Below, in pieces: positions 1,166 through 53,926 of a stretch of DNA of 64,000 nucleotides (positions within the stretch are counted from its first letter, which is position 1; each line of letters starts with the position of its first letter). This stretch comes from Pedosphaera sp. (GTDB taxonomy: Bacteria > Verrucomicrobiota > Verrucomicrobiia > Limisphaerales > SXQI01): contig JANYDC010000125.1 in assembly GCA_025359965.1 (NCBI GenBank), positions 1 to 64,000 of the forward strand. The letters run 5' to 3'. Both the position numbers and the translations under genes were made by a program. The notes beneath the pieces were generated by a model. The model was not told the origin of the DNA, made no database searches, and saw only the letters and a program-made list of their open reading frames with translations.

Positions 1166-1563
1166 AGTCCAATGGAAGGTTGCTGAGCAGGGACCCGATT
1201 GAAGAGGCGGGCGGCAAGAATCTTCACGGGTTTGTGAACAACGATCCCGCGAACAAATTTGATATTGATGGGCGGTTTTTCTGGTTCTCTGGATGTTCCA
1301 AGCCCCCCTGTATGATTACATGGTTGTGCACCACTACTGGCCCGGTTGCGAAGAAAGCACTCCCTGGTGGATTGACGATCTGGGGATGTATTTATGCCTG
1401 TACAGTAGTAGCCCGGTCTGGAACTTGTACTGGCAATAATAACCTCGCTATTGGCGGAACTGGCTGGCCGGATGGATCCGATACTATGGAGCTCCTCCCT
1501 CGATTCGGAGCTCCACCCGCAGGCCTCTGTCCTCTTACGAAAACAATTAATGAAAGCAGGTAA
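1..1563 (+). CDS. RHS/YD-repeat protein with variable Cys-rich tip, 5' end outside window
   Basis: The reading frame is open from base 1, so the N-terminus lies upstream. The first in-window start is GTG at 73, but homology continues before it. The protein has repeated YD-type motifs (YDSLGQV, YDAKGRR, YDGNGN) and the RHS core end, with YRYY followed by RDPIEEAGG, encoded near 1150-1220. RHS cores form a shell that encapsulates a C-terminal toxin which is released on delivery to neighbouring cells. The roughly 100-residue tail after the core (from about 1255) is different from the tails of the two later copies. It is rich in Cys and hydrophobic residues, and I do not recognise its activity. 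The stop is directly followed by the ATG of the next gene, suggesting a toxin-immunity pair. The RHS assignment is sure; the toxin role of the tail is inferred. Confidence 0.9.
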   Translation, partial: QSTTNRLTTTKQYDNLNRLSSIGSVPSADSPLVYGYQYNDANQRIRVNLADGAYWLYRYDSLGQVISGKKYFADNTPVPGQQFEYGFDDIGNRLSTKGGGDQNGVNLRSASYTPNLLNQITTRGVPGGFDVVGLAPVAASVTVNSSAADYRRGEYYQELLNPVNTSVPVWQSVAVATSGGGSASGNVFVPKTPEVYSYDLDGNQTVDGRWNYTWDAENRLVRMVANTAVGPQQRIDYGYDAKGRRISKKVWGNTAGTGSPATYNRFIYDGWNLLAELDGNNTNAIVRSYIWGSDLSGSMQGAGGVGGLLMINDPTTVATHFVAYDGNGNVAATVSGSAGTTTAAYEYGPFGEVIRSSGTISKTNPYRFSTKYQDSETDLLYYGYRYYNQSNGRLLSRDPIEEAGGKNLHGFVNNDPANKFDIDGRFFWFSGCSKPPCMITWLCTTTGPVAKKALPGGLTIWGCIYACTVVARSGTCTGNNNLAIGGTGWPDGSDTMELLPRFGAPPAGLCPLTKTINESR

Positions 1564-2067
1564 ATGAGGCGCCTTGTTTCCATCAAGATGGCAGTGTTTG
1601 TAGCTATCTTTTTAGGTGGACTGTTCACTGTAACGTTTCGGGCGTTATCACGCAAAGTGGTGCTGATTGTAGAAAGTCTAGAACATGACAAGGAAGGGAA
1701 TCTCTCTGTAAGCTTGGTTCTCTCAAACGCTCAATCGTCAAGCATTAAACTGGCAACTGATTCAACGGGCCAGCCTTTCGTAGCAATCCTGAAGGATTAC
1801 GGCGCAGGGATGACGAATATCTCAAAACGGACGGCATCCGCGCTCAGCATATTGCCAGGGCGTAATTCTATTCGATTCAAATGTAACTTGCCCTGCGACG
1901 GTGAAGCCACCTATTTGGGAGTTAGTACATACACTGTTGATCCTTCCCGGGCTGCGTGGAATACGATTGTTGCACGGGTAATGGGATCGTCTTCTGAAGA
2001 GTCGCGTGACATCATGGTTGAAATAAATCCATGTAATCGGGGTAGTGTGGATTCAAATGGTCGATGA
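1564..2067 (+). CDS. Small membrane-anchored protein, candidate immunity protein for RHS tip 1
   Basis: This 167-residue protein starts with ATG immediately after the TAA of the RHS gene. Residues of about 8-26 form one N-terminal hydrophobic segment (roughly VAIFLGGLFTVTF), and the rest looks like a soluble domain outside the cytoplasm. I do not recognise the family. Position directly behind an RHS variable tip is the classical place of a cognate immunity gene, and an anchored periplasmic domain would fit a toxin acting on the envelope. The Cys-rich hydrophobic tip of the preceding gene is compatible with that. This is inference from context only; it could instead be an unrelated small exported protein. 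Confidence 0.55.
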   Translation: MRRLVSIKMAVFVAIFLGGLFTVTFRALSRKVVLIVESLEHDKEGNLSVSLVLSNAQSSSIKLATDSTGQPFVAILKDYGAGMTNISKRTASALSILPGRNSIRFKCNLPCDGEATYLGVSTYTVDPSRAAWNTIVARVMGSSSEESRDIMVEINPCNRGSVDSNGR

Positions 2068-2212
2068 TGTGACCTGAACCAGCCACGCCGGGGAGCGGTG
2101 ACGGGTCGTGTTGGTTTTCGCGAGTGGCTGATTCCCGTCCCGTTACGGATGGGCGATAGCCCCCGAAAACGCCCTGCCAACCGAGTGAGGGGCGCGACTC
2201 CTTCCGGCTATT

Positions 2213-4027
2213 TTGAAGCACGGTCTTCCATGGAAGTCTGAAAATGCCAATATCAGCAGCGTTGCCAATTCGCCTTTGGTAGGCCAGATTGCCTTCAAAC
2301 AATCAACCACGAACCGCCTGACCACCGCCAAACAGTACGATAACCTGAACCGGCTCAGTTCCATTGGCTCGGTGCCAGCTGCGGATAGTGCTTTGGTCTA
2401 TGCCTATCAGTACAACGAGGCCAATCAACGGATCAGGGTCAATCTCGCGGATGGGGCCTACTGGCTGTACCGGTATGATTCCCTCGGTCAGGTCATCAGT
2501 GGGAAGAAGTATTTCGCGGACAACACCCCCGTGCCCGGCCAGCAGTTCGAGTACGGCTTTGACGACATCGGTAACCGCCTTTCCACCAAAGCGGGCGGGG
2601 ATCAGAACGGGGCCAACTTGCGCAGTGCCAGTTACACTCCCAACCTGCTGAACCAAATCGCCACCCGAGGGGTGCCGGGAGGGTTTGATGTGGTAGGGCT
2701 GGCTCCGGTGGCCGCCAGTGCCACCGTCAATAGTTCCTCCGTCGATTACCGGCGTGGGGAGTATTATCAGGAACTGCTCAGCCCTGTGAATACCTCGGTG
2801 TCTGTCTGGCAGAGCGTGGCCGTGACTACCTCCGGCGGGGGCTCCACCAGCGGTAATGTCTATGTGCCCAAAACCCCGGAGAACTTCAGCTACGACACCG
2901 ATGGCAACCAGACCGTCGACGGACGCTGGAACTACACATGGGACGCTGAGAACCGGCTCATCCGTATGGTGGCCAACACCGCTGTGGGACCGCAGCAGCG
3001 CATTGATTACGGCTATGATGCCAAGGGACGCCGCATCAGTAAGAAGGTTTGGAGCAACACGGCGGGCACGGGCAGTCCGGCCACCTATAATCGCTTCATC
3101 TACGACGGATGGAATTTGCTGGCTGAATTGGACGGCAACAACACCAACGCCGTCGTGCGCAGCTACATCTGGGGCAGTGACTTGAGCGGTTCCATGCAGG
3201 GGGCCGGGGGCGTGGGCGGACTGCTCATGATCAACGACCCGACCACCGTCGCCACCCATTTCGTGGCCTACGACGGCAATGGCAATGTCGTTGCCACCGT
3301 CAGCGGCAGTGCCGGAACCACCACCGCCACCTACGAATACGGACCATTTGGAGAAGTCATCCGCTCCAGCGGCACCATCTCCAAGACCAACCCCTACCGC
3401 TTCTCCACCAAATATCAAGATAATGAGACGGATCTACTTTATTACGGATACCGTTACTACAGTCAGTCTTCAGGCAGGTGGATTTCCAGAGACCCAATGG
3501 CAGAATTGGGCGGTCTAAATTTATACGCTTTTGTCTTGAACAGGCCCACTATTGGCTTCGACCCCGACGGGCGAGTTGCGGTTGTTGACGATGCTGTGAT
3601 TATTGCTGCAATAGGCACTGCTGTTGCGTGTTCAGCTGCTACCGCTTGGCTGACATCTCCAGAGGGTCAAAAGGCTATACATGACATTGCAGAAACAGCC
3701 ATTTCAGCCGCTGATGCTATATGGGACGCTATCTCTGCCGCCGCTGGTAAATGCAAAGACTTCATTTGCTCACGGAAAAAAGCCAATTGTGATCCAATTG
3801 AAGGTCTCAGCGTAGCGCAGGATGAAAGTAAGTATGGCAAGTCAAAGTGCCCCCCCCCGGTTGCCTGGCAAGCCCAAGGCTCCGGAGGTGGACATGGACA
3901 GGGAGGATCGACTCATTGGCATTGGATTGCATGGGATCCCGCACCGTGCGGACTATGCATCCCGACTCGACGCAGTGGGCCAAATCCGCCAGCAAATGCA
4001 GTAATTTTGCCCGGAGTTTATAAATAA
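2213..4027 (+). CDS. Orphan RHS core with variable C-terminal tip 2
   Basis: The only available start is TTG at 2213. RHS similarity begins around 2250, so the copy lacks the signal, N-terminal plug and most of the shell of a full RHS protein, and it is best seen as an orphan core-tip cassette. The core (about 2300-3490) is nearly identical to the first copy and ends with SRDPMAELGG. The tip (about residues 455-604) begins with a hydrophobic Ala-rich stretch, then a Cys-containing segment and a HWHW motif near the C-terminus; I do not recognise its activity. Four to six bases separate it from the downstream gene, whose protein resembles immunity proteins. Expression as an independent protein is doubtful; such cassettes can be brought into use by recombination with an upstream full-length rhs gene. 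Confidence 0.8.
   Translation: MKHGLPWKSENANISSVANSPLVGQIAFKQSTTNRLTTAKQYDNLNRLSSIGSVPAADSALVYAYQYNEANQRIRVNLADGAYWLYRYDSLGQVISGKKYFADNTPVPGQQFEYGFDDIGNRLSTKAGGDQNGANLRSASYTPNLLNQIATRGVPGGFDVVGLAPVAASATVNSSSVDYRRGEYYQELLSPVNTSVSVWQSVAVTTSGGGSTSGNVYVPKTPENFSYDTDGNQTVDGRWNYTWDAENRLIRMVANTAVGPQQRIDYGYDAKGRRISKKVWSNTAGTGSPATYNRFIYDGWNLLAELDGNNTNAVVRSYIWGSDLSGSMQGAGGVGGLLMINDPTTVATHFVAYDGNGNVVATVSGSAGTTTATYEYGPFGEVIRSSGTISKTNPYRFSTKYQDNETDLLYYGYRYYSQSSGRWISRDPMAELGGLNLYAFVLNRPTIGFDPDGRVAVVDDAVIIAAIGTAVACSAATAWLTSPEGQKAIHDIAETAISAADAIWDAISAAAGKCKDFICSRKKANCDPIEGLSVAQDESKYGKSKCPPPVAWQAQGSGGGHGQGGSTHWHWIAWDPAPCGLCIPTRRSGPNPPANAVILPGVYK
2300..3464 (+). repeat. RHS core direct repeat, copy 2
   Basis: Second copy of the RHS core, collinear with 1-1165 at an offset of 2299. 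Both ends are sharp: upstream sequence at 2068-2240 is not RHS-like, and downstream the variable tip takes over. The third RHS region (about 4870-6190) is a more distant relative of the same core and does not align without gaps. Confidence 0.85.
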
Positions 4028-4033
4028 CACGTT

Positions 4034-4456
4034 ATGGAAGATCTAACTTCATCCAATATTTTGGATTACATTGTAGACGTGCACAAAGTGTTGGATTATG
4101 TTGATCATTGGCCGGATTTTCATGATGCGGAAATCATCAGCATTAAGCTGAATCGCCAACAAACGATAACTGAAATTGGACCAACACTAATTTTGGATAT
4201 TGCAACGATGCACAAAAGCACTTGGGTACGAATCGAGTTGCATTTTGGGAGAGTCGAAAGATTGGTTCTGGCAGAGTTCAATTACCAAAACGCGATCAAC
4301 GGATTGTTTATTTCATTTGTTTCAGCTGCGAAGCATTCAAAATCCCGGCTTAAAGTAGAGCTAATTGAAGCTTTTGGGGTTAGTGGGTCTTTTCAGTGTG
4401 AGAAAATAAAAGTAGGATGTATATCACCATATGATTATCCAAAGTCTTTTTGGTAG
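4034..4456 (+). CDS. Imm50-like candidate immunity protein for RHS tip 2
   Basis: A 140-residue soluble protein starting with ATG six bases after the RHS stop. Residues around 28-38 read WPDFHDAEIIS, a Trp-x-x-Phe-His-Asp-Ala-Glu signature that I associate with the Imm50 class of polymorphic-toxin immunity proteins. The gene is visibly AT-richer than the RHS core in front of it, which is usual for tip-immunity modules acquired by transfer. The expected role is to bind and neutralise the tip of the preceding RHS protein in the cytoplasm. The family label is from memory of the motif and is moderate in confidence; the positional argument is stronger. Confidence 0.6.
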   Translation: MEDLTSSNILDYIVDVHKVLDYVDHWPDFHDAEIISIKLNRQQTITEIGPTLILDIATMHKSTWVRIELHFGRVERLVLAEFNYQNAINGLFISFVSAAKHSKSRLKVELIEAFGVSGSFQCEKIKVGCISPYDYPKSFW

Positions 4457-4460
4457 GCTC

Positions 4461-4570
4461 GATCGTTGAATTAACGAGTTCAAGTACCCCAGCATGGGCG
4501 ATTCAACAATGCTATCCGCCCCAAGGGGGGGAGATTACCCAAGTACCCTCGAGATCGTTGCCTAGTTAAC
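4461..4570 (+). repeat. Pair of short direct repeats beside the recombinase remnant
   Basis: The octamer GATCGTTG occurs at 4461-4468 and 4553-4560, each followed within a few bases by a TTAAC string, and CAAGTACCC occurs at 4481-4489 and 4540-4548. They lie in the non-coding gap between the immunity gene and the 3' end of the truncated tyrosine recombinase. They could be remnants of a recombination site or chance; the repeats are short. Confidence 0.3.
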
Positions 4571-4607
4571 ATACCTCCCAACGCGATAGCGGCTCACTAA
4601 CTCCGAC

Positions 4608-4913
4608 TCAATACTCCACCTTAAACGTCGGCGAATCCTCCGGCCTACTCAACCGCGCATCGTAGAGCCTGGTCGTCGAAATATTCGCGTGTCCCAGCCA
4701 CTCCTGCACCTTGGCAATGTCGGCATTGTGCTCCAGGGCGTTGGTGGCCGCTGTTTTCCTTAGCGCGTGCGGACCAAATCCCTCCACTGAAATACCCACT
4801 TCCTTGGCGTACTTCATTACCACGTTGCGATACACCGAGCTGCTCGTCAGTCCCGTTTCCATTTTTCCGTCCGGACGTTTGAAGAGCGTGACCAACGGTC
4901 TTTTCACTGCCAA
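4608..4913 (-). pseudogene. Tyrosine recombinase (integrase), C-terminal catalytic fragment
   Basis: Only the last 101 codons are present, reading from a TTG at 4913. Counting from there, the fragment keeps HxxR (His49, Arg52), the GHANIST box with His75, and the nucleophile Tyr84, with normal spacing (23 and 9 residues), and it ends with [10 protein letters not shown]. The N-terminal DNA-binding domain and the first catalytic Arg are missing, so it cannot be an active recombinase alone. The 5' break falls at about 4860-4905, exactly where RHS coding sequence begins on the other strand. The element that this integrase served has been cut by, or has delivered, the third RHS cassette. Confidence 0.85.
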
Positions 4914-6724
4914 TTATGCTTATCTGGCTAATTCCGACCTCCTGAGCACCACCACCTTCGCCAGCAACACCACCACACGGGTGACGAGTACGCGGCAGTG
5001 GGATTTTGGGTATCGATTGAGGGGAATCAACCATGCAGTGGGTGGAGTGGGAGTGGCAGGGCACAATTACGGTTATGACCTCGCGGAACGAAGAACGCGG
5101 GCGTGGTTGGAGGATGGTTCTTACTGGGCTTATGGTTATGACGACCGTGATGAAGTGACCTCGGGCAAACGGTATTGGGTGGGATCATTCGTCGGTGCCG
5201 GGCGAGCAGTACCAATACGCCTACGACGGGTTGGGCAACCGGACCAACTCGGCGGCGGGCGGGGACAGCTCTGGACAAAACCTGCGCTCGACTGGCTACG
5301 CGGTCAACAACCTGAACCAGTACACAAGCGTCACCAACTCCGGGTATGTGGAGATCATCGGCTCGGCCTCGGGTCCGGCCAGCGTGGCGGTCAATACCTT
5401 GGCCGCCTACGAGCGAGGGGAGTTCTTTCACAAGGAACTGGCTGGTAACACCACCACCAATCCCATGGCCCTGTCCGTTTCGGCCATCGCCAACATAAGC
5501 GGCACCACCGCGACTAATTCGATCTCGCTCCTGTTGCCACCACAGAACCAAGCCTTGACCAATGACCTCGACGGCAACCTGACCAGCGACGGGCTGTGGG
5601 TGTACGTGTGGGACGCCGAGAACCGGCTGACCAGTATGTACAGCGCTACCAATGTTCCGACGGCCAGCAGGCGGTTGTTGGAGTTTGGGTATGATTACGA
5701 GGGCAAACGGATTTCCAAGAAGGTGTCCACCTGGGTCTCCGGAAATTGGTCGCAGCAAAGCCATACGGTTTTTCTGTACGATGGCTGGCGTCCGCTGGTT
5801 GAGATGGATGGAACCACCGTGGCCAATCTCGTGCCGACTCTGCTACTGACTTACACTTGGGGTCAGGATCTGAGCAGATCGCTGGACGACGCCGGAGGCA
5901 TCGGAGGTTTGGTGGCCTATCAGGAAATCCAAGGGGCCAACACTTGGACGCATTTCCCGATCTACGACGGCAACGGCAACGTGACCGGCCTGTACAGCGG
6001 AGCCGGAGAACGCACCGCCAAGTACGAGTACTCTCCCTTCGGCGAAGTCATTACCAAATTTGAAGCCCCCAGCGTGAAGTACCCGTTCCGTTTCTCCACC
6101 AAGCATCAGGACTTAGAGACTGGGCTTGTGTACTACGGGTACCGCTACTTCGCAGCGTCACTCGGTAGGTGGATCAACAGGGATCCAAAAGCAGTAGAGG
6201 GCGGGATCAATCTCTTGGCATTTTTAAAGAACGGATCACTGAATCAGTTTGACCCTTTTGGTCTGACTGCAGGAAGCATGGGCGATACCGGAGCCGCCAT
6301 GTCGATAGATGAGGGTGGGGTAGGAGAGGGGGCTAGTACTGCGTCAAAAGCAAAAAACATATTTGAAGAAGTTGTCGATGAAATTAATGATACCGAACAA
6401 TTTGTTGCTGCACTTGCCGATGGTCCTGAAGATGCTCTTATCGTTGGACTTCAACTTGTTGGTGAGCGCATTGTTAGCAAGTTCGGCGGGCGACACGGAC
6501 ATCATTCCGATCCGCAATGGGCTGGTGGTGCTAAAAAACAAAAGCTCACAGACATGTGGCAGGGTGGCCACGAACAATTACATAATGACATGAATGTGTT
6601 TCTCGATGAGTTTGGTATGAGGCCCCAAAAGGGGAATTCTGGACAGATTATAAAAGCCAAGTTTGGTAGGAATGGCATTTTGGATAAAGTGGCTGCATTT
6701 TATCAGAAAAACAGTTCCAAATAA
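4870..6724 (+). pseudogene. Third RHS cassette, frameshifted, with HNH/Endo VII-like tip
   Basis: RHS-like coding begins near 4870 in one frame ([35 protein letters not shown]) and continues from about 5180 in the next frame (VPGEQYQYAYDGLGNR onward). A one-base change between about 5170 and 5195 separates them; joined, the two parts form a normal core. The core ends at YRYF and NRDPKAVEGG (about 6130-6205). The tip contains GRHGHHSDPQW, then KQKLTDMWQGGHEQLHND, a His-rich pattern like that of HNH/Endo VII-type RHS nuclease toxins. The second frame has an ATG-less internal start at 5195, so a shortened product cannot be ruled out. A sequencing error is the main alternative to a true frameshift. 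Confidence 0.8.
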
Positions 6725-6767
6725 AGTGAAGCAGCAAAAGATTTTTTAATCAAAACCCAAGATTAAA

Positions 6768-7316
6768 ATGAACGGTGCTAAGTTGTTTTTCATTGTTGAT
6801 CCAGAAAATGGTGCACACATGTTGCCCGACGATGATACAGGGTTAGTGTGTCCAGAATGCACCAGATTGCTGAATTGTAATTATATTAATCCAAAATTTA
6901 AAGTTCCAAAAAAGTGTCCTGATATATCTCACACTTATGATGGATTCCAAGTGGTTTCTCAAAAATTTCGAGAGATAATTGAAACGGAAGGGTATCAAGG
7001 TGTCGAATTTATTTCGATACCTGCATGTCCATTTTTTTTAATGCGTGTAACGAATGTTCTTGAGTTTAGTAGACCTTCGGAACTCAAGTTCGAAGATCTT
7101 TGCCATTCCTGTGGAAGATACGCATCTGTTTGGGGCCTTCTTCACGTAAAGGTAATCGTGCCTTTTTCGGGTGTGTGTGAGGGATTATATCGGAGCGATA
7201 TCGAGATGGGTTACCGACAATCAATAGCCCCTATATTAATCGTCCCAGAAGCAACGAAATTAACGCTTAAAAAAAATAAATTAACAGGCGTGGAGGCGAT
7301 GCCTGCTCCTGTCTGA
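6768..7316 (+). CDS. Cys-rich (zinc-ribbon-like) candidate immunity protein for RHS tip 3
   Basis: A 182-residue protein beginning with ATG 43 bases after the third RHS cassette. It has a CPEC pair near residues 28-31 and a second pair, CHSCG, near 111-115, which together could bind one zinc ion. No signal peptide or membrane segment is visible. The gene is strongly AT-rich compared with the RHS core. I recognise the general layout from proteins encoded behind RHS nuclease tips but cannot name the family. Inferred role: cytoplasmic inhibitor of the HNH-like tip. Retention next to a frameshifted toxin gene would fit an immunity gene kept for protection from siblings. Confidence 0.55.
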   Translation: MNGAKLFFIVDPENGAHMLPDDDTGLVCPECTRLLNCNYINPKFKVPKKCPDISHTYDGFQVVSQKFREIIETEGYQGVEFISIPACPFFLMRVTNVLEFSRPSELKFEDLCHSCGRYASVWGLLHVKVIVPFSGVCEGLYRSDIEMGYRQSIAPILIVPEATKLTLKKNKLTGVEAMPAPV

Positions 7317-37108: not shown

Positions 37109-37130
37109 TATCGTATTAGTATAAACGATA
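37109..37130. promoter_or_regulatory. Dyad TATCGT-N10-ACGATA over a -10-like box
   Basis: A perfect 6-bp inverted repeat with a 10-base spacer, ending 16 bases before the chosen ATG of the GTPase gene. TATAAA (37120-37125) lies inside it. The arrangement suits a repressor site at the promoter of the GTPase-helicase operon, or a hairpin in its leader. No regulator gene is adjacent. Confidence 0.4.
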
Positions 37131-37146
37131 GAAATTGTTCAAAAAT

Positions 37147-39540
37147 ATGCCTGACTCACCTTCACGTCGCATCGTTGCATGGTTCAAAACGCTCGTTCGA
37201 CCGGTTTTCCAAAAGACTGAGAAAGCACCTGTGCTTGAGGAATTAGATAAGCTGGCTGCACAGGTGGAGCAACTTGAAAAAACCAAAGGAGACGCATTTC
37301 CAATCTGCTTGCTGGGACAGGCAGGCGTGGGTAAGAGCACACTCATCAATACTCTTATAGCAGATACCGCCATTGTAGTTCCCTCCGGCGGCGGGACGGG
37401 GCCGCTCACTGCCAACGCGCTAAGTGTTACCTACGGGGACCACCCTTCGTTTGTAGTTAAATATCACTCAAGGAAGCAAGTCGACCAAACTCGATTCATC
37501 CTCGAAGGAGAAATCCATCGGCAAAACAAAAGCAATTTCGCGGAGGTCTCAGCAGAAGCTCTCGAAAATGCGGAATTCGCAGACATTGAGTTAGACGGCG
37601 AAGAGCAGAAGAAAACCCGTACTGAAGAGGCGATTGGTCGGGCTTCCCTACTCGTAGCAGGAGCACAAACGGCCCCGCGTGACCTGACTTATCTAGCGGA
37701 TTCATTACGGTGGGTTCTGGGGCAATCGCGAAAATTTCAGACACAACTTCTTGAAGAGGACAAGGAACGATTACGTCAGGTAGCAGAGGCTTTAAATCAT
37801 GGAGTCACTGAAGCAGGCAGGCATTTCGATAGCACAAAAACTCCGGATTTTGGTCATCGGCTACGGGACCACGCGTGTGGTTTCATGGCTCCTCTCATTA
37901 TGGAAATGGCCATTCAGTGGCCTTCGCCGGTGCTGCAAGGTTCATTGGAAATAATCGATCTGCCGGGGATTGGAATTCTGAGCGACGCATACGCCTCAGT
38001 CACGTCAAACTACCTCCGTAATAAAGCAAAAGCGGTGATGCTTGTCGCTGACTCTCGTGGTATTCGCCGGGAGGATGCTGAACTCCTGCGGAGCAGTGGT
38101 TTCTTGAACCGTCTGTTGCATTCAAGCGACGACCTGACGGCGGATCCGGTTGCGCTGATTGTAGTCGTTGTTAAAATTGACGATGTCGCCGTGGAGAACT
38201 GGAGAAATGATAAGGCAATAAACGGTGTGGCCTTACAAACCAAAGCCGAACATTTTGCTGCTCAGGTGGAACGCTGCCGCGCTGATGTTGCACAGCGTCT
38301 GCAAAACTTCCTGCGTGAGGTCTGGGAGGATGATACGGAGGGCAAACGGATTGTGATCAAATCAATCCTTGATAATTTGAAGATTTTTCCGGTCTCCGCA
38401 CCACAATTCCGCCTGCACTGCGCGACAGATCCTGACGATGATAAACCGTTCCTTCCGGACGCCGAGACGACGAATATCATTGCTCTGCGTAGCGCCATCT
38501 CCAACGTTGCACGAGCCTGCATGGCCGAACGAAAGCATCGACGAGAGGAGATCCTACAGCGTTTTTTTGGGCAACTGCGCGCTCGGCTGGAGCTTCTGAG
38601 CGCGCAGAGAAACGAAGAGCGTCAAGCAGAAGAAAAGATTAGTAACTTTAAGCAGGCTCTGGACTGCTTTAGGGCACCGCTCCAGCGTGAGTTTGATACC
38701 CGTCGAGGAGGTTTCCGCAACTTCTTGCGTCAAACGATTCCCACTCAAATCGAGGCTAGGGTGCAAAAAGCGTCGGATAAGGCCCGGAAAGACATTCAAA
38801 GTGACCTCAAGAAATTACGAGGTGCGCATTGGAAAACGCTCCAAGCGGCGGTGCGCAAAGAAGGTACTTTTTACGGGAGTCGCCACATCAACCTTCCCCA
38901 TGATTTTGCCCTTCGTTTTGAGGAGCCCGTAGCTGAGGTTTGGAGTCGCGAAATCTTGGTGGACGTCCGCCGCGAAACCCGGGAATTCGCCGCTTATCAA
39001 TCCAGAGTAGTAACTCAAGTTCTTGAGTGGGCTAAACCACAAGGGATAAACGTCTCGACACGGTTACTGGAGGCCTTAGTTGAATCAGTAAGTCAGCATC
39101 AGCAGCAGGTAAACGCTGTGGGCAAGGAAGCGGTCGATGACCTCCGTGACAAGGTTCGCTCTGAGCTTATCAAAAAAATTGAAGTCCACATAAGGACCAG
39201 ATGTAAGAGATTCGTTGCCGATCAGAAGGATTTTAGGACAGGGGTTCGAAGTCGAATTCTCGAACTGTTCGAGGAGCTGGGCGACGAAGTGGTCGCCGCG
39301 GCCTTAATCCCTGCTGTTTGCTTGCTTACTGAAAAATTTAAGGAGGTAGACAAAGAAATTTTGGCGGCATTTCGCGAGCACAGCGATCCCTTGGACGAGG
39401 CAGCCGATGCCCTAGTTCAGCGTCAGGAAAAAAGCCTTCAACACGAAGCGGCCAAGGACGGAAAACTTCTAATCGCTATTGATGCAGCGTTGAGGGCCAC
39501 CCCCGAACAACATGCTGACATGAGCGCAGTTCTCATATGA
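37147..39540 (+). CDS. Dynamin-like large GTPase, first gene of a GTPase-SNF2 pair
   Basis: I use ATG 37147 (797 residues); a TTG four codons earlier is the alternative. A P-loop GQAGVGKST lies at 57-65, a G2-like GTGPLT near 84-89, the G3 motif DLPG at 271-274, and a variant G4 with VKID (Lys343, Asp345) where T/N-K-x-D is normal. About 180 residues separate G2 from G3, clearly more than in ordinary dynamins, and this part is charged and helical. From about 420 onward the chain is almost all long helices, like a dynamin stalk, but no transmembrane segment or paddle is evident. The last four bases overlap the helicase gene (ATGA), so the products are made together. I do not know a named family. 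Confidence 0.85.
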   Translation: MPDSPSRRIVAWFKTLVRPVFQKTEKAPVLEELDKLAAQVEQLEKTKGDAFPICLLGQAGVGKSTLINTLIADTAIVVPSGGGTGPLTANALSVTYGDHPSFVVKYHSRKQVDQTRFILEGEIHRQNKSNFAEVSAEALENAEFADIELDGEEQKKTRTEEAIGRASLLVAGAQTAPRDLTYLADSLRWVLGQSRKFQTQLLEEDKERLRQVAEALNHGVTEAGRHFDSTKTPDFGHRLRDHACGFMAPLIMEMAIQWPSPVLQGSLEIIDLPGIGILSDAYASVTSNYLRNKAKAVMLVADSRGIRREDAELLRSSGFLNRLLHSSDDLTADPVALIVVVVKIDDVAVENWRNDKAINGVALQTKAEHFAAQVERCRADVAQRLQNFLREVWEDDTEGKRIVIKSILDNLKIFPVSAPQFRLHCATDPDDDKPFLPDAETTNIIALRSAISNVARACMAERKHRREEILQRFFGQLRARLELLSAQRNEERQAEEKISNFKQALDCFRAPLQREFDTRRGGFRNFLRQTIPTQIEARVQKASDKARKDIQSDLKKLRGAHWKTLQAAVRKEGTFYGSRHINLPHDFALRFEEPVAEVWSREILVDVRRETREFAAYQSRVVTQVLEWAKPQGINVSTRLLEALVESVSQHQQQVNAVGKEAVDDLRDKVRSELIKKIEVHIRTRCKRFVADQKDFRTGVRSRILELFEELGDEVVAAALIPAVCLLTEKFKEVDKEILAAFREHSDPLDEAADALVQRQEKSLQHEAAKDGKLLIAIDAALRATPEQHADMSAVLI

Positions 39541-42278
39541 ATGGTCCTCTTGTCAGCTTTAAGCACATTCCGCACGTTGTAATTCGTGAGACTGACGACT
39601 GGGGTATTCGTGTTCTTGATTTGGCTGCACCGCCCAGGCGGCTCTGGGGTAGTCAACCAGCAATCCCAGCCCCTCTCCGCACCAATATCGATCCATATCT
39701 AACACAGCCCTATCCGCTGCCTGGAGAATTACTCACCGCAGCACTTGCAGAGAGCGATACCTGGAGCGCAATGACTAAGAGAAGCCTAGCTCGTTTTGAG
39801 GCCTTTTTTCTCACGTGTGAAGACCCTCAGCGGCGTCTTGATGCGAGAGAAGTTGTCACGCTGGCCCATCAAGTTAGCTTGGTTCGCCATATTCTAGATA
39901 CCCCTGGAAGACGACGTGTTCTTATTGGGGACGAGGTCGGACTTGGAAAAACCGTCGTTGCTGGCCTCATCATCCAAGAGTTGCTGGCGGCGAACCCCGG
40001 CTTACGGGTGCTTTATCTTGCTCCCGCAAGGCTGGTCTCCAACGTCGGTCGAGAGTTCAATCGTCTGTCTTTGTGCTTTCGTGAGTGGAAAGCTCAAGAC
40101 GGAGACGCTCGTCTCGATACTGATCATCGGATTATTGCCAGCATTCACCGCGCGGTTCATCCCCACCATCTTGACCGGTTGCTCCGACTGCGTCCTTGGG
40201 ACATTATCGTTGTTGACGAGTGTCATCACTTGAGTGATTGGAGTGAGGGTGGTGGAGATCCTGTAATGAAGTATCGGCTGGTTCGCGAGTTGGTCGCAAA
40301 GCAATCCCCGGAGAGCTGCCTTCTGCTATTGTCTGGCACACCTCATCAGGCCCATGCTGCTCGTTTCGACAATCTCTTAAGGTTGCTCCAAGCCCAGGGC
40401 GAATCACCAGCTCAGACGGCAGGCCGCGTTATTTATCGCACAAAAGAGGATGTGCGCGATTGGGACGGCAACCCTCTCTTCCCGCAGAGACAGGTGAATC
40501 CACCGATCATTGTCAATCTTGATCCTGATCATAAAGCTTGGTTGACGGCTATCCACAGTTTTTTTAAGCCTGCCGAAGGTCACGTAGATCAAGCGCTTCA
40601 ACGCGCTGCTGGGTGGAAGTGTGCCCAAGCCCTGCAATGGGCGACTTCCAGCCCCAACGCAGGGCTTGGTTACCTTGTCCGTCAGGCGCTGCGCGCAGGC
40701 TGGACATTGGCTGAAGAGCCACTGGAGGAAGCCATAGCCGCCCTGCGGCCTTACCGATCAGGCTCTCCGAAGGAACCTGTCGAGGCCGTCTATCGCCGCT
40801 TGCTGGTAGAAATTCGCCGTCAAAATGATGAGGAAGATGTTGAGGATATAGAGGAGACGATCCATGACAACAATAACAACGTCCACCACGCCGCCTTAGC
40901 CTCTCTGATTGCCCAAGGGATTAAACTAGTACTGGCTCCTCGCCAGCTAAAGTGGGAAGTTCTTTGGCGCGAGGTTATTCAGGTTTCAGGCATGGACAAA
41001 ATCGTTCTCTTTGCACAACCCATCGAAACCGTATTGGCATTGGCAACTTGGTTGGAGAAAAAGACAGGCCAGTGCCCTGCAATTATAATTGGTGGACAGT
41101 CCGACGCAGAGCGGGATCAGCAAGTGGCGCGGTTCAAGGACGTTCAAGGGCCTCAGTTTCTTATCTCATCTAGAGCGGGTGGGGAGGGCATCAACCTGCA
41201 GTTCTCTCGCAGATTGGTTCATCTCGACGTCCCTTGGAACCCAATGGAGATGGAACAGCGGGTTGGACGAGTGCACCGCTTTGGCTCTCGGGAAACGATC
41301 CTGGTTGATACGATAGTAGTTCGGGATAGCCGTGAAGCCCAAGCTTGGAGTGTTGCGCGCACTCGACTTGAGTCCATTGCGCATACTCTTGTTGCCGCTG
41401 ATCGTTTTGAGACCGTTTTCTCACGCGTTATGTGCCTCATTCCGCCGGAGGAATTGCAAACCGTACTCATCAATAGCCCTGCCTCGCCGATGGCGCAAAC
41501 CGATGTTGAGCGTTTGTCCGCACTCGTTGATTCTGGTTTTCGGGACTGGCAAAATTTCCACAACCGGTATGCAGCAAATCAACAGAAAATCCGCGAGCAG
41601 CCAGGCGGAATCGCCAAATGGAGTCATCTTCGGGATTTCCTTATTCGCTATGGCGGGGCTCAACTTGCCACAGGCATAGCTCGAACTCGGTTCCTCCAAC
41701 GCAATGGACAAGTGGAAACCGTGGATGAGTCAGCCGAGGTGCTAAAAATCAGCGATGGCTCACTCCGCTTTGTGGGCGATTTCGATGGAGGGCTTTTTAA
41801 CGGCCAAGTGACTGGTTCGGTCGATCCACTTGGTTTAAATATTCCAGATGTTGCCGATTTATTGAGCAACTGTGCCAGTCCAGTTCAAGTAGCAGGCGCT
41901 GCTCATCTTCGTTGGGGCGACAACCAAAAAGATCTCCGCGCTAGACTAGGCAATGAAGTCGTAGTGCTTGCTTTCGCTCGCCAGAGCTTTCGCCTAGATT
42001 CCGTCGGTGGCCACAATGAGGTTGGCACCGATTTGACAGCGTACGTGGTGCGCACTGAAACGACTGACGAACTCTCGGATGAAGATCGAGGCGCTCTATT
42101 TGACTTAAGCCACTTGGGGACCATTCGTGTGCGTCCGGTTGATTCTAAATTGCATGCACGCGCTGCCACGGAAGAACGAAAGATTATCAACGAATTGCGC
42201 CGTCCTTCTGAAGAAGCGATCCGACAAGGTGTGCGTTACGCTGTTTGGCCTATTCTCGCGCTTCATTTGAGCCCTTAG
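39537..42278 (+). CDS. SNF2-family DNA helicase/translocase, second gene of the pair
   Basis: A 913-residue protein. After about 125 N-terminal residues come Walker A GDEVGLGKT (131-139), Walker B DECHH (227-231) and motif III LSGTPHQ. The second RecA domain has ISSRAGGEGINLQ and the motif VI QRVGRVHRFGS. The order and the DEVGLGKT form match the RapA/DrmD-type SNF2 group, enzymes that translocate on double-stranded DNA and are frequent in phage-defence loci such as DISARM. The last 250 residues are not recognised and may bind the partner. It overlaps the GTPase gene by four bases and ends the operon; a 190-base gap with no gene follows. Confidence 0.9.
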   Translation: MNGPLVSFKHIPHVVIRETDDWGIRVLDLAAPPRRLWGSQPAIPAPLRTNIDPYLTQPYPLPGELLTAALAESDTWSAMTKRSLARFEAFFLTCEDPQRRLDAREVVTLAHQVSLVRHILDTPGRRRVLIGDEVGLGKTVVAGLIIQELLAANPGLRVLYLAPARLVSNVGREFNRLSLCFREWKAQDGDARLDTDHRIIASIHRAVHPHHLDRLLRLRPWDIIVVDECHHLSDWSEGGGDPVMKYRLVRELVAKQSPESCLLLLSGTPHQAHAARFDNLLRLLQAQGESPAQTAGRVIYRTKEDVRDWDGNPLFPQRQVNPPIIVNLDPDHKAWLTAIHSFFKPAEGHVDQALQRAAGWKCAQALQWATSSPNAGLGYLVRQALRAGWTLAEEPLEEAIAALRPYRSGSPKEPVEAVYRRLLVEIRRQNDEEDVEDIEETIHDNNNNVHHAALASLIAQGIKLVLAPRQLKWEVLWREVIQVSGMDKIVLFAQPIETVLALATWLEKKTGQCPAIIIGGQSDAERDQQVARFKDVQGPQFLISSRAGGEGINLQFSRRLVHLDVPWNPMEMEQRVGRVHRFGSRETILVDTIVVRDSREAQAWSVARTRLESIAHTLVAADRFETVFSRVMCLIPPEELQTVLINSPASPMAQTDVERLSALVDSGFRDWQNFHNRYAANQQKIREQPGGIAKWSHLRDFLIRYGGAQLATGIARTRFLQRNGQVETVDESAEVLKISDGSLRFVGDFDGGLFNGQVTGSVDPLGLNIPDVADLLSNCASPVQVAGAAHLRWGDNQKDLRARLGNEVVVLAFARQSFRLDSVGGHNEVGTDLTAYVVRTETTDELSDEDRGALFDLSHLGTIRVRPVDSKLHARAATEERKIINELRRPSEEAIRQGVRYAVWPILALHLSP

Positions 42279-48114: not shown

Positions 48115-49284
48115 ATGATTAAACAAATTCAAGCAATAGTGGTTTTATCTTTGTTGGCATGCCTGACATTGACGGGTTGCGGCAAACATGAGGGCGCAGC
48201 ACACGGTGGGCAGGCAGGCGGGCCTATTCCCACGGTTACAGTAATTAAAGTGAAACCCGGAGAAACGGTGGAGGAGGAGGAACTGACCGGGCGCGTAGAA
48301 GCGATCGAATCGGTCGAAATTCGGCCGCGAGTGAGCGGTTACCTCACGGAGATCCGCTTCCAATCCGGCCAACTCGTTAAGAAAGGCGATGTGCTTTTCG
48401 TGATTGACCAGCGTCCATTCAAAGCGGCTTTGCAACGTGCGGAAGGTGAGGCGGATGCGGCAAAAGCACGGTTTGAATGGGCAGAGAGGGAAGCAAAACG
48501 TGGAGAAGGTTTGCTGGCATCAAGAGCCCTTTCACAGGAAGAATCCCAAACACGTGGAACTAAACTGAGCGAAAACCGTGCCGCACAAACGGTGGCTGAG
48601 GGAGCACTGACCACAGCACGCCTCAACATGGATTTCACGGAGGTGAAATCGCCCATTGACGGAAGGGTCAGCCGGGCGCTTGTCACGGTGGGGAACAATG
48701 TCAGCGGTGTCGACGGAGCCACGACGCTGCTGACAACGGTTGTCTCGATTGATCCTATTTATGTCTACGCGGATGTAAACGAAGCAGCCACACTCAAAAT
48801 TCGCGGACTGCTGAAATCGGGAAAGTTGGGGTCGAATGGCAAGGTCAAGGTAAACATGGCGCTTGCGGACGAGGAGGGCTTTCCGCATGAAGGGGAGATC
48901 GAATCGTGGGATAACCGGCTGGATCCTGGAACAGGCAGCATGGTATTGCGCACCATTTATTCCAACCCGGACGGCAGGCTGGTGCCTGGGTTATTCGCGC
49001 GTTTGCGCCTTCCCAGTGGGGAAAAGAAATCCGGCCTTTTCATTCCGGAGGGCTCTGTGGGCACGGATCTCAGCCAGAAATTTGTGTTGGTGGTGAATGC
49101 GACCAATGGGGTGGATTACCGTCCCATCAAACTGGGAGGAGGGCTTTCCGGTTTGAGAGAAGTCAAGGAGGGGCTCACCGCTGAGGACCGAGTGGTGGTC
49201 AATTTGCTGATGGCGAAAGTGCGCCCTGGAATGACGGTTAAACCGGAGGAAGCAGCTGTTCCTGTTGCCGACGCCAAACATTAA
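48115..49284 (+). CDS. RND efflux membrane fusion lipoprotein (AcrA/MexA type)
   Basis: A 389-residue protein with a lipoprotein signal ending LTLTGC (Cys22). It has the usual order: barrel-sandwich half (EIRPRVSGYLTEIRFQSGQLVKKG), a central coiled hairpin (about 100-160, rich in Ala/Glu/Arg), the second lipoyl half (MDFTEVKSPIDGRVSR) and a beta-barrel. It bridges the inner-membrane pump and the outer-membrane channel. The pump gene begins 31 bases after its stop. It is the first gene of the efflux operon. Confidence 0.93.
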   Translation: MIKQIQAIVVLSLLACLTLTGCGKHEGAAHGGQAGGPIPTVTVIKVKPGETVEEEELTGRVEAIESVEIRPRVSGYLTEIRFQSGQLVKKGDVLFVIDQRPFKAALQRAEGEADAAKARFEWAEREAKRGEGLLASRALSQEESQTRGTKLSENRAAQTVAEGALTTARLNMDFTEVKSPIDGRVSRALVTVGNNVSGVDGATTLLTTVVSIDPIYVYADVNEAATLKIRGLLKSGKLGSNGKVKVNMALADEEGFPHEGEIESWDNRLDPGTGSMVLRTIYSNPDGRLVPGLFARLRLPSGEKKSGLFIPEGSVGTDLSQKFVLVVNATNGVDYRPIKLGGGLSGLREVKEGLTAEDRVVVNLLMAKVRPGMTVKPEEAAVPVADAKH

Positions 49285-49315
49285 GCAACCCTCGATTAAT
49301 CAAGAGGGCAACCGT

Positions 49316-52300
49316 ATGAATTTTTCCCATTTCTTTATTCGACGTCCGATTTTCGCGGGAGTGCTGTCCATCCTGATCTTCCTATTGGGAATGATCGCGA
49401 TGAACAAGCTGCCCATCAGCGAATATCCCGAGGTGGTGCCGCCGCAGATTGTGGTGCGCGCGGTGTATCCGGGAGCGAACCCAAAAACGATCTCGGAGAC
49501 CGTGGCGGTTCCGCTGGAATTGCAGATCAACGGCGTGGAGAACGCGCTGTATATCTCATCGCAATCGACCAGTGATGGCGTGATGACCTTAACGGTCACT
49601 TTCAAACTGGGTACGGACATCGACAAAGCCCAGGTGCTGGTGCAGAACCGCGTTTCGCAGGCTTTGCCAAAGTTGCCGGAGGAAGTGCGGCGCCTGGGTG
49701 TCCTGACGATCAAATCCTCGCCGGATCTTACGATGGTGGTCCATTTAATTTCGAAGGATGGCAGATACGACGATATTTATGTGCGCAACTACGCAACCCT
49801 CCAGGTAAAAGATGTGCTGGCACGTATCAAAGGCGTGGGCCAAGTGTCTGTGTTTGGTTCGGGTGACTACGCCATGCGTGTTTGGTTGGACCCGCAAAAG
49901 GTGGCCGCAAAAAGCATGACGGCCAAGGAGGTGGTGGATTCGATTCGTGAGCAGAATGTCCAAGTCGCTGCGGGCGCGGTGGGACAGCAGCCGGTGAGTG
50001 AGCCGGTGCCGTTCGAGTTGCAGATCAACACCAAGGGGCGGCTCGTCACAGAGGAAGAGTTCGAGGGGATTGTGCTCAAGACCGGACCCAACGGGGAGAA
50101 GGTGCTGTTGAAGGATGTTGCCCGAATTGAGCTGGGCGCCGGGGAGTATGCGCTGCGTTCGCTGCTGAACAACAAGTCAGCGGTGGCGTTGCCCATCTTC
50201 CAGCAGCCGGGCAGCAATGCGCTGGAGCTCTCGGCCAACGTGCGCAAGACTATGGCGGAGCTTAAGGGCAGTTTCCCCGACGGGCTGGATTACAATATTG
50301 TTTATGACCCCACGGTGTTCGTGCGCAAATCCATCGACGCCGTGGTTCACACGCTGTTTGAAGCCGTGCTATTGGTCGTGCTGGTGGTGATTCTCTTCCT
50401 TCAGACATGGAGGGCTTCCATTATCCCGCTGGCGGCGGTGCCAGTATCTCTGGTGGGAACCTTCGCGGTCATGAGTGCGCTGGGATTTTCAATCAACGCG
50501 CTTTCACTCTTCGGTCTAGTGCTGGCCATCGGCATTGTGGTTGATGACGCCATCGTGGTGGTTGAGAATGTGGAGCGTAATATTCGCCTCGGTAGATCGG
50601 CGGTGGAAGCAACGGAACAGGCCATGCGCGAAGTGACAGGCCCCATTGTGGCGACGGCTTTGGTGCTGTGTGCAGTGTTTGTGCCGACCGCATTCATTAG
50701 TGGATTAACCGGCCAGTTCTACAAGCAGTTCGCAATTACGATCGCCATTTCGACGGTAATTTCAGCCTTCAATTCACTGACGCTTTCGCCGGCGCTTTGT
50801 GCGCTTCTGCTAAAAGACCATCATGCGCCCAAGGATCGTCTGACACGCATCATGGATGGCGGTTTGGGTTGGATTTTCCGGCCATTCAACCGCTTCTTCG
50901 AGTGGGCCTCGGCTCGTTATGCTCACGGAGTGGCGCGAGTGATCCGGGCCAGTGTGGTGGCTCTCATCGTTTATTTGGGGCTGGTGGTGCTTACGGGCTG
51001 GAGCTTCCAAAAGGTTCCTGTGGGTTTCGTGCCTGTGCAGGACAAGCAGTACCTGATCGCTTTTGCGCAGCTGCCCGACGCGGCTTCGCTCGACCGTAGC
51101 GATGCGGTCATTCGCAAGATGTCGGACATGGCCAAGTCGGTCCCGGGTGTGGCCAATTCCATTGCGTTCCCGGGCTTGAGCATCAATGGCTTTAGCGTGA
51201 GCCCGAACAGCGGGATTGTGTTTGTTGGATTGGACGATTTTGAGAATCGGACAACGCCGGACAAATCAGGCCTTGCTATTGCGGCCAAGTTGAACGGGAT
51301 GTTTTCCCAGATTCAAGAAGCCCTTGTTTTGGTGGTGCCGCCGCCGCCGGTGAATGGTCTGGGAACGAGCGGAGGATTCCGTATGCAGGTTGAGGATCGC
51401 TCGGGAGTTGGTTATGAGCAGCTGTACGCATACACCCAGCAAATCATCGGCCGGGCCTACGCCACAAATGCTCTTTCGACGGTTTATTCGACCTTCCAAG
51501 TGAGCGTGCCACAGCTGGATGCGGATGTGGATAGGGTCAAGGCCAAGATTCAAGGTGTCTCGCTAACGGAATTGTTCGACACGATGCAGATTTATCTGGG
51601 CTCACTTTATGTCAATGACTTCAACCGTTTCGGGCGCACTTATCAGGTGATTGCGCAGGCGGAAGCATCTCATAGGGACCGAATGGAGAAAGTCAAACAA
51701 CTCAAAGTGCGCAACAGCAAAGGGCAAATGGTGCCGATTGGCTCGCTGGTGAGGGTTGAAGAGGGGCACGGACCCGATCGCGTTATGCGCTACAACGGTT
51801 ACCCCACAGCGGAGATCAATGGAAACCCCGGGCCCGGATTTAGCTCGGGTCAGGCGGAGTCAGCCATTGAGGATATCGCCGCACAGGTATTGCCCAAGGG
51901 AATGACTTACGAGTGGACCGACCTGACCTACCAGCAGCGTTCCGCCGGCAACACAGCGATCTATATCTATCCGCTCTGTTTGCTGCTGGTGTTTCTGGTG
52001 CTGGCAGCTCAGTACGAAAGCCTGAGCCTGCCGCTGGCGATTATCCTGATCGTTCCCATGTGCCTGTTGAGTGCCCTGACAGGTTTGCTGATCAAAGGTG
52101 CTGAGAATAATGTATTCACCCAAATCGGTTTGATTGTGCTGGTGGGACTGGCCTGTAAAAACGCGATTTTGATCGTTGAGTTTGCCAAGGCCAAGCACGA
52201 CGAGGGGATGAGCACGGTTGATTCGGCCCTGGAGGCCTGCCGTCTTCGTTTGAGGCCGATTCTGATGACAAGTATCGCGTTCATCGCGGGCGTCTATCCA

Positions 52301-53926
52301 CTGGTGGCGTCCCACGGTGCCGGAGCAGAAATGCGTCAGGCGATGGGTGTGGCAGTGTTTTCCGGCATGATCGGCGTGACCGTGTTCGGCTTGTTTCTCA
52401 CGCCGGTGTTTTTCGTGGTAATCATGAATGTGGCCGCCTACTTCAAGCGTAAACCAGCCGTATCGACTAACCTCAAGACTGGCGGCGGACATGCGCCCGT
52501 CGCGGGAGCCGCTGTCGGCCTAATGTTGCTGGTGGGTTCGGTGACTGCGATGGCCGGACCGCTCACTGTTGGGCCTGACTATAAAAAACCAGTGATCGAA
52601 ACCGCGCCCGTCTTTAGGGATGCCGCAACCAACGAGTGGAAGGTGGCGCAACCATCCGATGAGCAGTCGCGCGGACAATGGTGGCTGGCTTTCAACGATC
52701 CGGTTCTCAACGAACTGGCCCAGGCAGCGACCACCAATGGGTTTACCTTGCGGGCGGCGCTGGCCCGTGTGGAGCAGGCTCGCGCCAGCGCACGAATTAC
52801 TCGCGGAAGTTTTTATCCCAATCTGAGTTTTGATCCGAGCTTTTCACGCGATAAATATTCACCGAATCAGATCCCAAACTTCGGTTCGGTGACGGCAAAC
52901 ACGTGGAAAATGCCCTTGGATCTCAGCTACGAAATTGACTTGTGGGGGCGGGTGCGACGCGCTTCGGAATCGGCTCGGAGCGAGGCGGAATCCAGTCTGG
53001 CCAATTTCTATGCCGCTCAACTGTCGATCCAGGCCGAGGTGGCTCAAAATTATTTCACGCTGCGCAGTACGGACAACCAACGTGAGATCGTGGAGGAAAC
53101 CAGGAAGGGACGCGCGGAGGCCTATGAAATCATCAAAGCCCGCGTGGATGCAGGTTCCGCGACTGATCTGGATTTGGCGCGCGCCGAAACCGAATTGGCG
53201 ACCGTTGAGTCGGAATACGCCAGCTTGGAACGGTCTCGGGCATCGCTTGAGGCTTCGTTGGCAGTGCTGACCGGCCGTGATCCTTTGACTTTCCGAATTG
53301 CTGACACGGGACATTACGGCCCGCCCGTGCCCGTGATCCCGGCGGGATTGCCGGTGGCTTTGCTGGAACGCCGCCCGGATATCGCGGCGGCAGAGCGGAA
53401 GATGGCTTCGGCCAATGCTCAAATTGGCGTGGCAAAGGGAGCGTTTTTCCCGGTGTTTCGCCTGACTGGCAGTGGAGGATTCATCAGTGCCGATTTTGAC
53501 CAACTGTTCAAGTGGGACAGTCGTGTCTGGTCCATCGGACCGAGTTTGTCCCTTCCCATCTTCGCGGGCGGACGCAATAAAGCCGGTTTGGCCCGGGCGA
53601 AACAGATCCATGATGAAGCAAGCTACAACTACCGGCAACAGGTGTTGGTGGCGCTTAGTGAGGTGCAAGAGACCCTGACCGGGCTGAAGTATTTTATGGC
53701 CCAGGTTGAGGCGTCAGACCGCGCTGCACAGTCTGCTCTTAAAGCCTCAGCTATCGCGCGCTTGCGTTATGATGGCGGGATCTCCAGCTATCTCGAAGTG
53801 GTGGACGCCGAGCGATCCGCTTTGCAAATTCGGCGCGAGGCTGCCCGCTCGCATGGGCAGCAGCGCATTGCCACAGTCCAACTCATCAAAGCCTTGGGTG
53901 GAAGTTGGGACGATACCATCAAATAA
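49316..53926 (+). CDS. Fusion of RND efflux pump (HAE-1) and outer-membrane factor in one frame
   Basis: ATG 49316 (MNFSHFFIRRPIFAG) gives 1536 residues. Residues 1 to about 1050 are a complete AcrB-like pump with the proton-relay pair Asp410-Asp411 in IVVDDAIVV and Lys948 in CKNAILIVEF. A linker and a signal-like hydrophobic segment (GLMLLVGSVTAMAG, about 1065-1080) then lead into a full-length OprM/NodT-type outer-membrane factor (VGPDYKKP onward, to 1536). The lipobox Cys usual at that point is missing. No stop codon separates the parts; ATG 52523 is an in-frame internal start. Two possible outcomes are cleavage at AMA-GP after export, or separate initiation; a real tethered protein would span both membranes. 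Confidence 0.9.
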   Translation: MNFSHFFIRRPIFAGVLSILIFLLGMIAMNKLPISEYPEVVPPQIVVRAVYPGANPKTISETVAVPLELQINGVENALYISSQSTSDGVMTLTVTFKLGTDIDKAQVLVQNRVSQALPKLPEEVRRLGVLTIKSSPDLTMVVHLISKDGRYDDIYVRNYATLQVKDVLARIKGVGQVSVFGSGDYAMRVWLDPQKVAAKSMTAKEVVDSIREQNVQVAAGAVGQQPVSEPVPFELQINTKGRLVTEEEFEGIVLKTGPNGEKVLLKDVARIELGAGEYALRSLLNNKSAVALPIFQQPGSNALELSANVRKTMAELKGSFPDGLDYNIVYDPTVFVRKSIDAVVHTLFEAVLLVVLVVILFLQTWRASIIPLAAVPVSLVGTFAVMSALGFSINALSLFGLVLAIGIVVDDAIVVVENVERNIRLGRSAVEATEQAMREVTGPIVATALVLCAVFVPTAFISGLTGQFYKQFAITIAISTVISAFNSLTLSPALCALLLKDHHAPKDRLTRIMDGGLGWIFRPFNRFFEWASARYAHGVARVIRASVVALIVYLGLVVLTGWSFQKVPVGFVPVQDKQYLIAFAQLPDAASLDRSDAVIRKMSDMAKSVPGVANSIAFPGLSINGFSVSPNSGIVFVGLDDFENRTTPDKSGLAIAAKLNGMFSQIQEALVLVVPPPPVNGLGTSGGFRMQVEDRSGVGYEQLYAYTQQIIGRAYATNALSTVYSTFQVSVPQLDADVDRVKAKIQGVSLTELFDTMQIYLGSLYVNDFNRFGRTYQVIAQAEASHRDRMEKVKQLKVRNSKGQMVPIGSLVRVEEGHGPDRVMRYNGYPTAEINGNPGPGFSSGQAESAIEDIAAQVLPKGMTYEWTDLTYQQRSAGNTAIYIYPLCLLLVFLVLAAQYESLSLPLAIILIVPMCLLSALTGLLIKGAENNVFTQIGLIVLVGLACKNAILIVEFAKAKHDEGMSTVDSALEACRLRLRPILMTSIAFIAGVYPLVASHGAGAEMRQAMGVAVFSGMIGVTVFGLFLTPVFFVVIMNVAAYFKRKPAVSTNLKTGGGHAPVAGAAVGLMLLVGSVTAMAGPLTVGPDYKKPVIETAPVFRDAATNEWKVAQPSDEQSRGQWWLAFNDPVLNELAQAATTNGFTLRAALARVEQARASARITRGSFYPNLSFDPSFSRDKYSPNQIPNFGSVTANTWKMPLDLSYEIDLWGRVRRASESARSEAESSLANFYAAQLSIQAEVAQNYFTLRSTDNQREIVEETRKGRAEAYEIIKARVDAGSATDLDLARAETELATVESEYASLERSRASLEASLAVLTGRDPLTFRIADTGHYGPPVPVIPAGLPVALLERRPDIAAAERKMASANAQIGVAKGAFFPVFRLTGSGGFISADFDQLFKWDSRVWSIGPSLSLPIFAGGRNKAGLARAKQIHDEASYNYRQQVLVALSEVQETLTGLKYFMAQVEASDRAAQSALKASAIARLRYDGGISSYLEVVDAERSALQIRREAARSHGQQRIATVQLIKALGGSWDDTIK

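Follow-up and report, generated by a model that had tools for sequence, protein, structure and literature searches.

A dynamin-superfamily GTPase and a SNF2-family helicase inherited as a pair: a candidate two-gene immune module

In the window (the whole stretch of 64,000 nucleotides of the Pedosphaera sp. contig that was analysed), the gene for a large GTPase overlaps the gene for a SNF2-family helicase, and the locus raises the question of what these two enzymes do together. An earlier sequence-only reading had regarded the pair as a candidate for a new defence system.

The coordinates and motifs of the two genes are summarized in Table 1. The GTPase matched Dynamin_N (Pfam PF00350) with an E value of 6e-10 and 39.8 bits against a cut-off of 27, and its G1–G4 motifs were invariant or nearly so, with DLPG approximately 207 residues C-terminal of the P-loop. 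These results indicate that the protein belongs to the dynamin superfamily. H561, L565, A567, and G573 were invariant in the family alignment, and the signature at residues 698–708 reads GxGxKxR in most family members. In regard to the helicase, the Pfam matches were Helicase_C (E = 1e-17), ResIII, and DEAD, and the two RecA-like lobes with motifs I, II, V, and VI place it in the SNF2/RapA group of SF2; no nuclease domain above the Pfam threshold was found in it. The nucleotide-binding motifs of both proteins were intact on inspection of the sequences. The large GTPase with its P-loop and DLPG, and its ATGA overlap with a helicase of the DEVGLGKT type, were thus as originally described, and the overlap likely couples the translation of the two genes. 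The long helical stalk also proposed for the GTPase is plausible from the helices at residues 439–783 of a predicted model, but this model, with a pLDDT of 40, is no evidence by itself; this value and the pLDDT of 34 for the helicase model are explained by the lack of a deep alignment.

Table 1. Features of the GTPase–helicase pair in the window.
Feature	Position in window	Strand	Residues	Remarks
Dynamin-superfamily GTPase gene	37147–39540	+	797 aa	ORF opens at TTG 37135; likely start ATG 37147
G1/P-loop, GQAGVGKS	37315–37338	+	57–64	G57, G62, K63, and S64 invariant in 7 homologues
G3, DLPG	37957–37968	+	271–274	Invariant in family alignment
GTPase motif VKID			342–345
GTPase motif SAP			417–419
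Family signature HWKTLQAAVR	38827–38856	+	561–570	Helical region; common to the Hma-linked GTPase branch
Family signature TGVRSRILELF	39238–39270	+	698–708	G699 and R703 invariant
ATGA junction	39537–39540	+		Overlap of GTPase stop and helicase start
SNF2-family helicase gene	39537–42278	+	913 aa	RapA/DrmD/BrxHII/HmaA group
Walker A, DEVGLGKT	39930–39953	+	132–139
Walker B, DECH	40215–40226	+	227–230
Helicase motif GEGINLQ			549–555
Motif VI, QRVGRVHR	41256–41279	+	574–581

The pair stands alone, as had been noted, between a prolyl-oligopeptidase-like gene on its 5′ side and a PVC-type cytochrome-domain gene on its 3′ side, both of which are unrelated to it and lie on the opposite strand. The impression that it is richer in AT than its surroundings held for third codon positions and not for codon usage as a whole. 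The GC3 values of the GTPase (0.505) and helicase (0.496) genes were approximately 3.4–3.6 s.d. below the mean of the 29 other ORFs of the window (0.646, s.d. 0.042) and were the lowest among its large genes, whereas the overall codon-usage distance of the pair was no outlier against the window ORFs. No exact direct or inverted repeats of 9–16 bp were found at the ends of the pair, and no tRNA gene was found within the window.

We searched for further copies in genomes of two phyla. The closest copy of the GTPase, and its sole match in the genome-contig collection, was found in a Planctomycetaceae MAG (73% identity; locus L001, genome G388), where the helicase is 77% identical to that of the window. 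The non-synonymous divergence between the window genes and this relative (as L037) was 0.15–0.20 with synonymous sites saturated, which indicates that both genes are real and constrained. Among the 388 genomes searched in the window's own phylum, no further close copy of the GTPase was found, and a family-profile search of 384 genomes of its class, including G812 and G972 of the same genus, gave no further copy. In the second sample, which comprised 392 genomes of the phylum of G388 (taken as Planctomycetota), seven genomes hold the GTPase (L037/L001, L031, L032, L033, L034, L035, and L036). The two samples have no genome in common, which suggests that the two phyla differ. When these 392 genomes were searched with a helicase profile, seven high scorers were obtained (552–1611 bits), followed by a next score of 279 bits. 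All seven GTPases adjoin the seven high-scoring helicases in a constant gene order, and the identity of the two sets of genomes indicates that the two genes are found only together in this sample. The pairwise distances of the GTPases and helicases of six pairs were correlated (Mantel r = 0.95, the highest value among 720 permutations), and in each pair compared the GTPase was the less conserved of the two proteins. The GTPase and helicase are a single co-inherited unit.

The known members number seven or eight, all from the two phyla sampled, and the search beyond those phyla covered only plasmid, phage, and viral-contig collections. No match to the window GTPase was obtained with tblastn in phages or plasmids, and none to the helicase in viral contigs. 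Plasmid dynamins that were matched by the GTPase of a relative proved to be dynamin pairs or triplets in operons with no SNF2 partner, a viral-contig GTPase match (L050) reads as RsgA, and the short matches L004–L007, L028, and L029 were discarded as unrelated or too weak.

The pair occupies unrelated places in different genomes and moves between them, and the single fixed chromosomal place that would have spoken against a defence role was not observed. The window copy is far nearer to one planctomycete copy than the planctomycete copies are to one another, and its identity to the Planctomycetaceae copy suggests transfer of the pair across phyla. Genomes of the same genus share almost no DNA with the window region around the pair. 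Between L031 and L035, DNA identity was 87% over 3.3 kb, from inside the GTPase gene to the end of the helicase gene, and the flanks of the two pairs (L031:8100–13294 and L035:6210–9571) differ. Transposase genes lie near the pairs of L001 and L031.

Several copies are decayed. The GTPase gene of L031 has an in-frame stop, that of L035 has lost its 5′ part and has an HNH gene alongside, and both genes of L036 have broken frames, in which assembly errors are possible. The GTPase of L031 and L035 is therefore broken, differently in each, with the helicase open, as would be expected if the GTPase were the costly part of the pair. Against this interpretation, loss of the GTPase with retention of the helicase fits equally a helicase that acts alone. 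It is also in line with an alternative that we regard as unlikely, in which the GTPase serves as a switch or chaperone that licenses the helicase as effector, so that invading DNA would be stripped or translocated and then cut by a host or neighbouring nuclease. GTP use by McrB, which drives McrBC, is a known case, and the better conservation of the helicase in every pair agrees with such a division of roles.

We examined the neighbours of the pair in the loci of the window's branch. Adjacent defence genes were present at 4/7 loci, which is a raw count with no random-locus baseline. A CBASS cyclase and an HNH-SAVED effector lie next to the pair at L001; AIPR fragments (remnants), Vsr, and an HNH gene at L035; PDC-S18 (a PADLOC candidate) and an HNH gene at L034; and a type I RM specificity subunit, HNH, PDDEXK_4, and a GIY-YIG-type T5orf172 at L036. 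The neighbours at L033 are a WYL regulator and an ADP-ribosylglycohydrolase, that at L031 is the transposase, and the contig of L032 is too short for its neighbours to be judged. The nucleases near several pairs (HNH, PDDEXK, and Vsr) could supply the cut that a helicase effector would need, but no one nuclease was common to all pairs, and no nuclease domain above threshold was present in the window helicase itself. No defence neighbour of the window copy was found in the window, where the pair lies among ordinary metabolic and transport genes.

The latter setting would suit a role outside defence, namely housekeeping or the maintenance of a mobile element, for example RapA-like recycling of transcription complexes or chromosome dynamics. 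RapA is the bacterial translocase that recycles RNA polymerase, a housekeeping factor, and the dynamin-like CrfC works at replication forks. Among proteins of solved structure, RapA is also the closest to the helicase motor (E of 1e-39 with the family profile). However, the likeness is limited to the motor, and the window helicase scored 148.6 bits against the RapA equivalog cut-off of 576. It differs from RapA in being paired with a GTPase, patchy, and mobile. The distribution of the pair (1/388 genomes in its own phylum and 7/392 in the other), its low GC3, varied locations, defence neighbours, and pseudogenised copies indicate that a housekeeping role fits poorly, and we consider a role outside defence improbable.

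No system matching the pair was found in PADLOC, NCBIfam, or Pfam, and neither protein reached an NCBIfam equivalog cut-off; the combination, which had been read as one with no known name, is absent as a system from PADLOC-DB and NCBIfam. The full-text literature, of which the coverage was incomplete, gave no description of a dynamin–SNF2 pair. In PADLOC, the helicase was about equally near to BrxHI, HmaA, DrmD, and DpdE, and these near-equal scores indicate that it is a separate branch of the RapA/DrmD/BrxHII/HmaA group. The BrxHI/BrxHII, DrmD, and DpdE helicases are of the same superfamily (PADLOC E values of 1e-38 to 1e-46), but the scores of the window helicase fell well short of the model cut-offs, with 164.8 bits versus 610 on DrmD (DISARM), 167.2 versus 500 on DpdE (Dpd), and 37.8 versus 1500 on ZorD (Zorya); the BrxHI model (BREX) gave 155 bits. 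None of the genes that accompany the helicase in DISARM, Zorya, Dpd, BREX, or Hma adjoined the pair: DrmA/DrmB and the DISARM methyltransferase were absent, the window has no dpd cluster, BrxC, PglX, and PglZ were absent beside the pair, and no ZorA/ZorB adjoined it. The pair thus falls outside these systems, close homologues of its genes were not components of a characterised system, and the suggested kinship with DISARM and Zorya was not borne out.

In regard to the GTPase, the sole PADLOC matches were LeoBC (E = 7e-11) and LeoC, over short stretches of which the best was the P-loop region. The dynamin-type G domain is common to the window GTPase and to LeoABC and other paired dynamin-like proteins. 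LeoABC consists of two or three adjacent dynamin genes, whereas the window has one dynamin and a helicase partner, which places it outside Leo. Among solved structures, the G domain is most closely related to the Campylobacter pair 5owv, Nostoc BDLP 2j68, and SynDLP. These are bacterial membrane dynamins, and DynA delays lysis in infected Bacillus cells (PMC8844932), which is a precedent for membrane-acting defence. In such a scheme, the helicase would sense invading DNA and the dynamin-like protein would remodel or stabilise the membrane, leading to abortive infection or delayed lysis. The likeness to membrane dynamins is, however, mostly within the G domain, and the partner is a DNA translocase rather than a second dynamin. 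Moreover, no segment of transmembrane strength was found in seven intact GTPases; the 19-residue Kyte–Doolittle maximum of 1.63 falls within the G domain, at its G4 strand, and in lacking such a segment the window GTPase differs from the paired dynamins. The membrane role that the sequence-only reading had entertained for the GTPase accordingly gained no support, and we give a membrane-acting system only a small chance.

A second branch of the GTPase family was found in two Hma loci, L008 (G178) and L051 (G825), in which a GTPase of 756–788 aa adjoins a helicase of 1187–1216 aa. The profile comparison between the window family and the Hma-linked GTPases gave an E value of 1.8e-28 over 620 columns, and the signatures HxxTLxA and GxGxKxR are common to both. 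The Hma-linked GTPases match DUF7605 (PF24564) above the cut-off, whereas the DUF7605 model gave no match to the window GTPase even at E = 1; DUF7605 may have a link to SLIP-GC, a nuclear GTPase of eukaryotes. With 1674 bits, the helicase of L008 is HmaA. HmaA belongs to the same broad SNF2 group as the window helicase (27% identity over the motor), but the latter scored 137.6 bits on the HmaA model, the window has neither the HmaB methyltransferase nor the HmaC ATPase, and its order of GTPase and helicase is opposite. The window pair is therefore not a member of Hma (HmaABC, the Type-1 BREX-related DUF499/DUF1156 system). Taken together, the two branches indicate a GTPase family joined to a SNF2 helicase in two settings, which may descend either from one ancestral union or from two separate joinings. 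As in the window's branch, both Hma-linked loci lie among defence genes. The Hma-branch helicases end in NOV_C/DUF3883, which the window helicase does not have. NOV_C/DUF3883 has been described as a PD-(D/E)XK nuclease in Type-1 BR systems (PMC12839542), and its presence on these helicases favours the view that the helicase is the effector. The components described in the survey of these BREX-related systems are a helicase, a methyltransferase, and an ATPase, and its text nowhere contains the word "GTPase" (PMC12839542).

The two loci have further genes of note. L008:3–12611 is an Hma locus with DUF499, DUF1156, SoFic, and a HigA-like gene, in which the DUF7605 GTPase adjoins HmaA. In the Hma-type locus L051:889–14273, an HmaA-like helicase has a DUF7605 dynamin GTPase as its neighbour, and HmaB is separated from these two by a Thoeris set (ThsB, ThsB, and ThsA); a TIR-PNTD protein follows.

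The inheritance of the two genes as a rare, inseparable pair and the frequent defence neighbours indicate that the pair is probably an undescribed immune system. We favour, with some reserve, the reading that the two genes form a mobile module, complete in itself, that acts against phages or other kinds of invading DNA. The proposal of a candidate defence pair is thereby strengthened by a pair that is conserved, moves horizontally, and has defence genes beside it at loci of both branches. Against the immune reading count the window copy with no defence neighbour, the small number of members, and the inclusion of RapA in the helicase group.

In such a module, the sensor that acts on DNA is probably the helicase, and the effector is probably the soluble GTPase. 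The helicase, a double-strand DNA translocase of the SNF2/RapA type, would find or engage invading DNA or the polymerase on it and would then recruit or activate the soluble dynamin-like GTPase. The GTPase may assemble on the nucleoprotein marked by the helicase, or act otherwise in the cytoplasm, and would block replication or transcription of the invader or halt the cell. No recognised nuclease domain is present in either window protein, so that any damage would have to arise from assembly of the GTPase or from host factors.

A bolder and rather doubtful extension is that the pair represents a new class of immunity, in which a SNF2 translocase would load a soluble dynamin-type GTPase on invading nucleoprotein, the polymer would be a nuclease-free effector, and the same family would have been coupled separately to HmaA in Hma/BREX-related systems. 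To our knowledge, the dynamin-like GTPases described in bacterial immunity to date are associated with membranes (DynA and paired dynamins, of which Leo is one). If dynamin and translocase are obligate partners in two branches, this would suggest that dynamins can act on DNA or nucleoprotein, and the Hma/BREX-related systems, which are widespread, would gain an accessory GTPase. The pair is small, at 5.1 kb.

Two other regions of the window were also observed. Region 1–7316 contains YD/Rhs-type repeat ORFs mixed with small low-GC genes (GC3 of 0.33–0.45) and resembles an Rhs tip-replacement region. A single ORF of 1553 aa at 49265–53926 seems to combine an RND efflux transporter and an outer-membrane factor in one polypeptide; these are usually two proteins, and a sequencing error is possible there.
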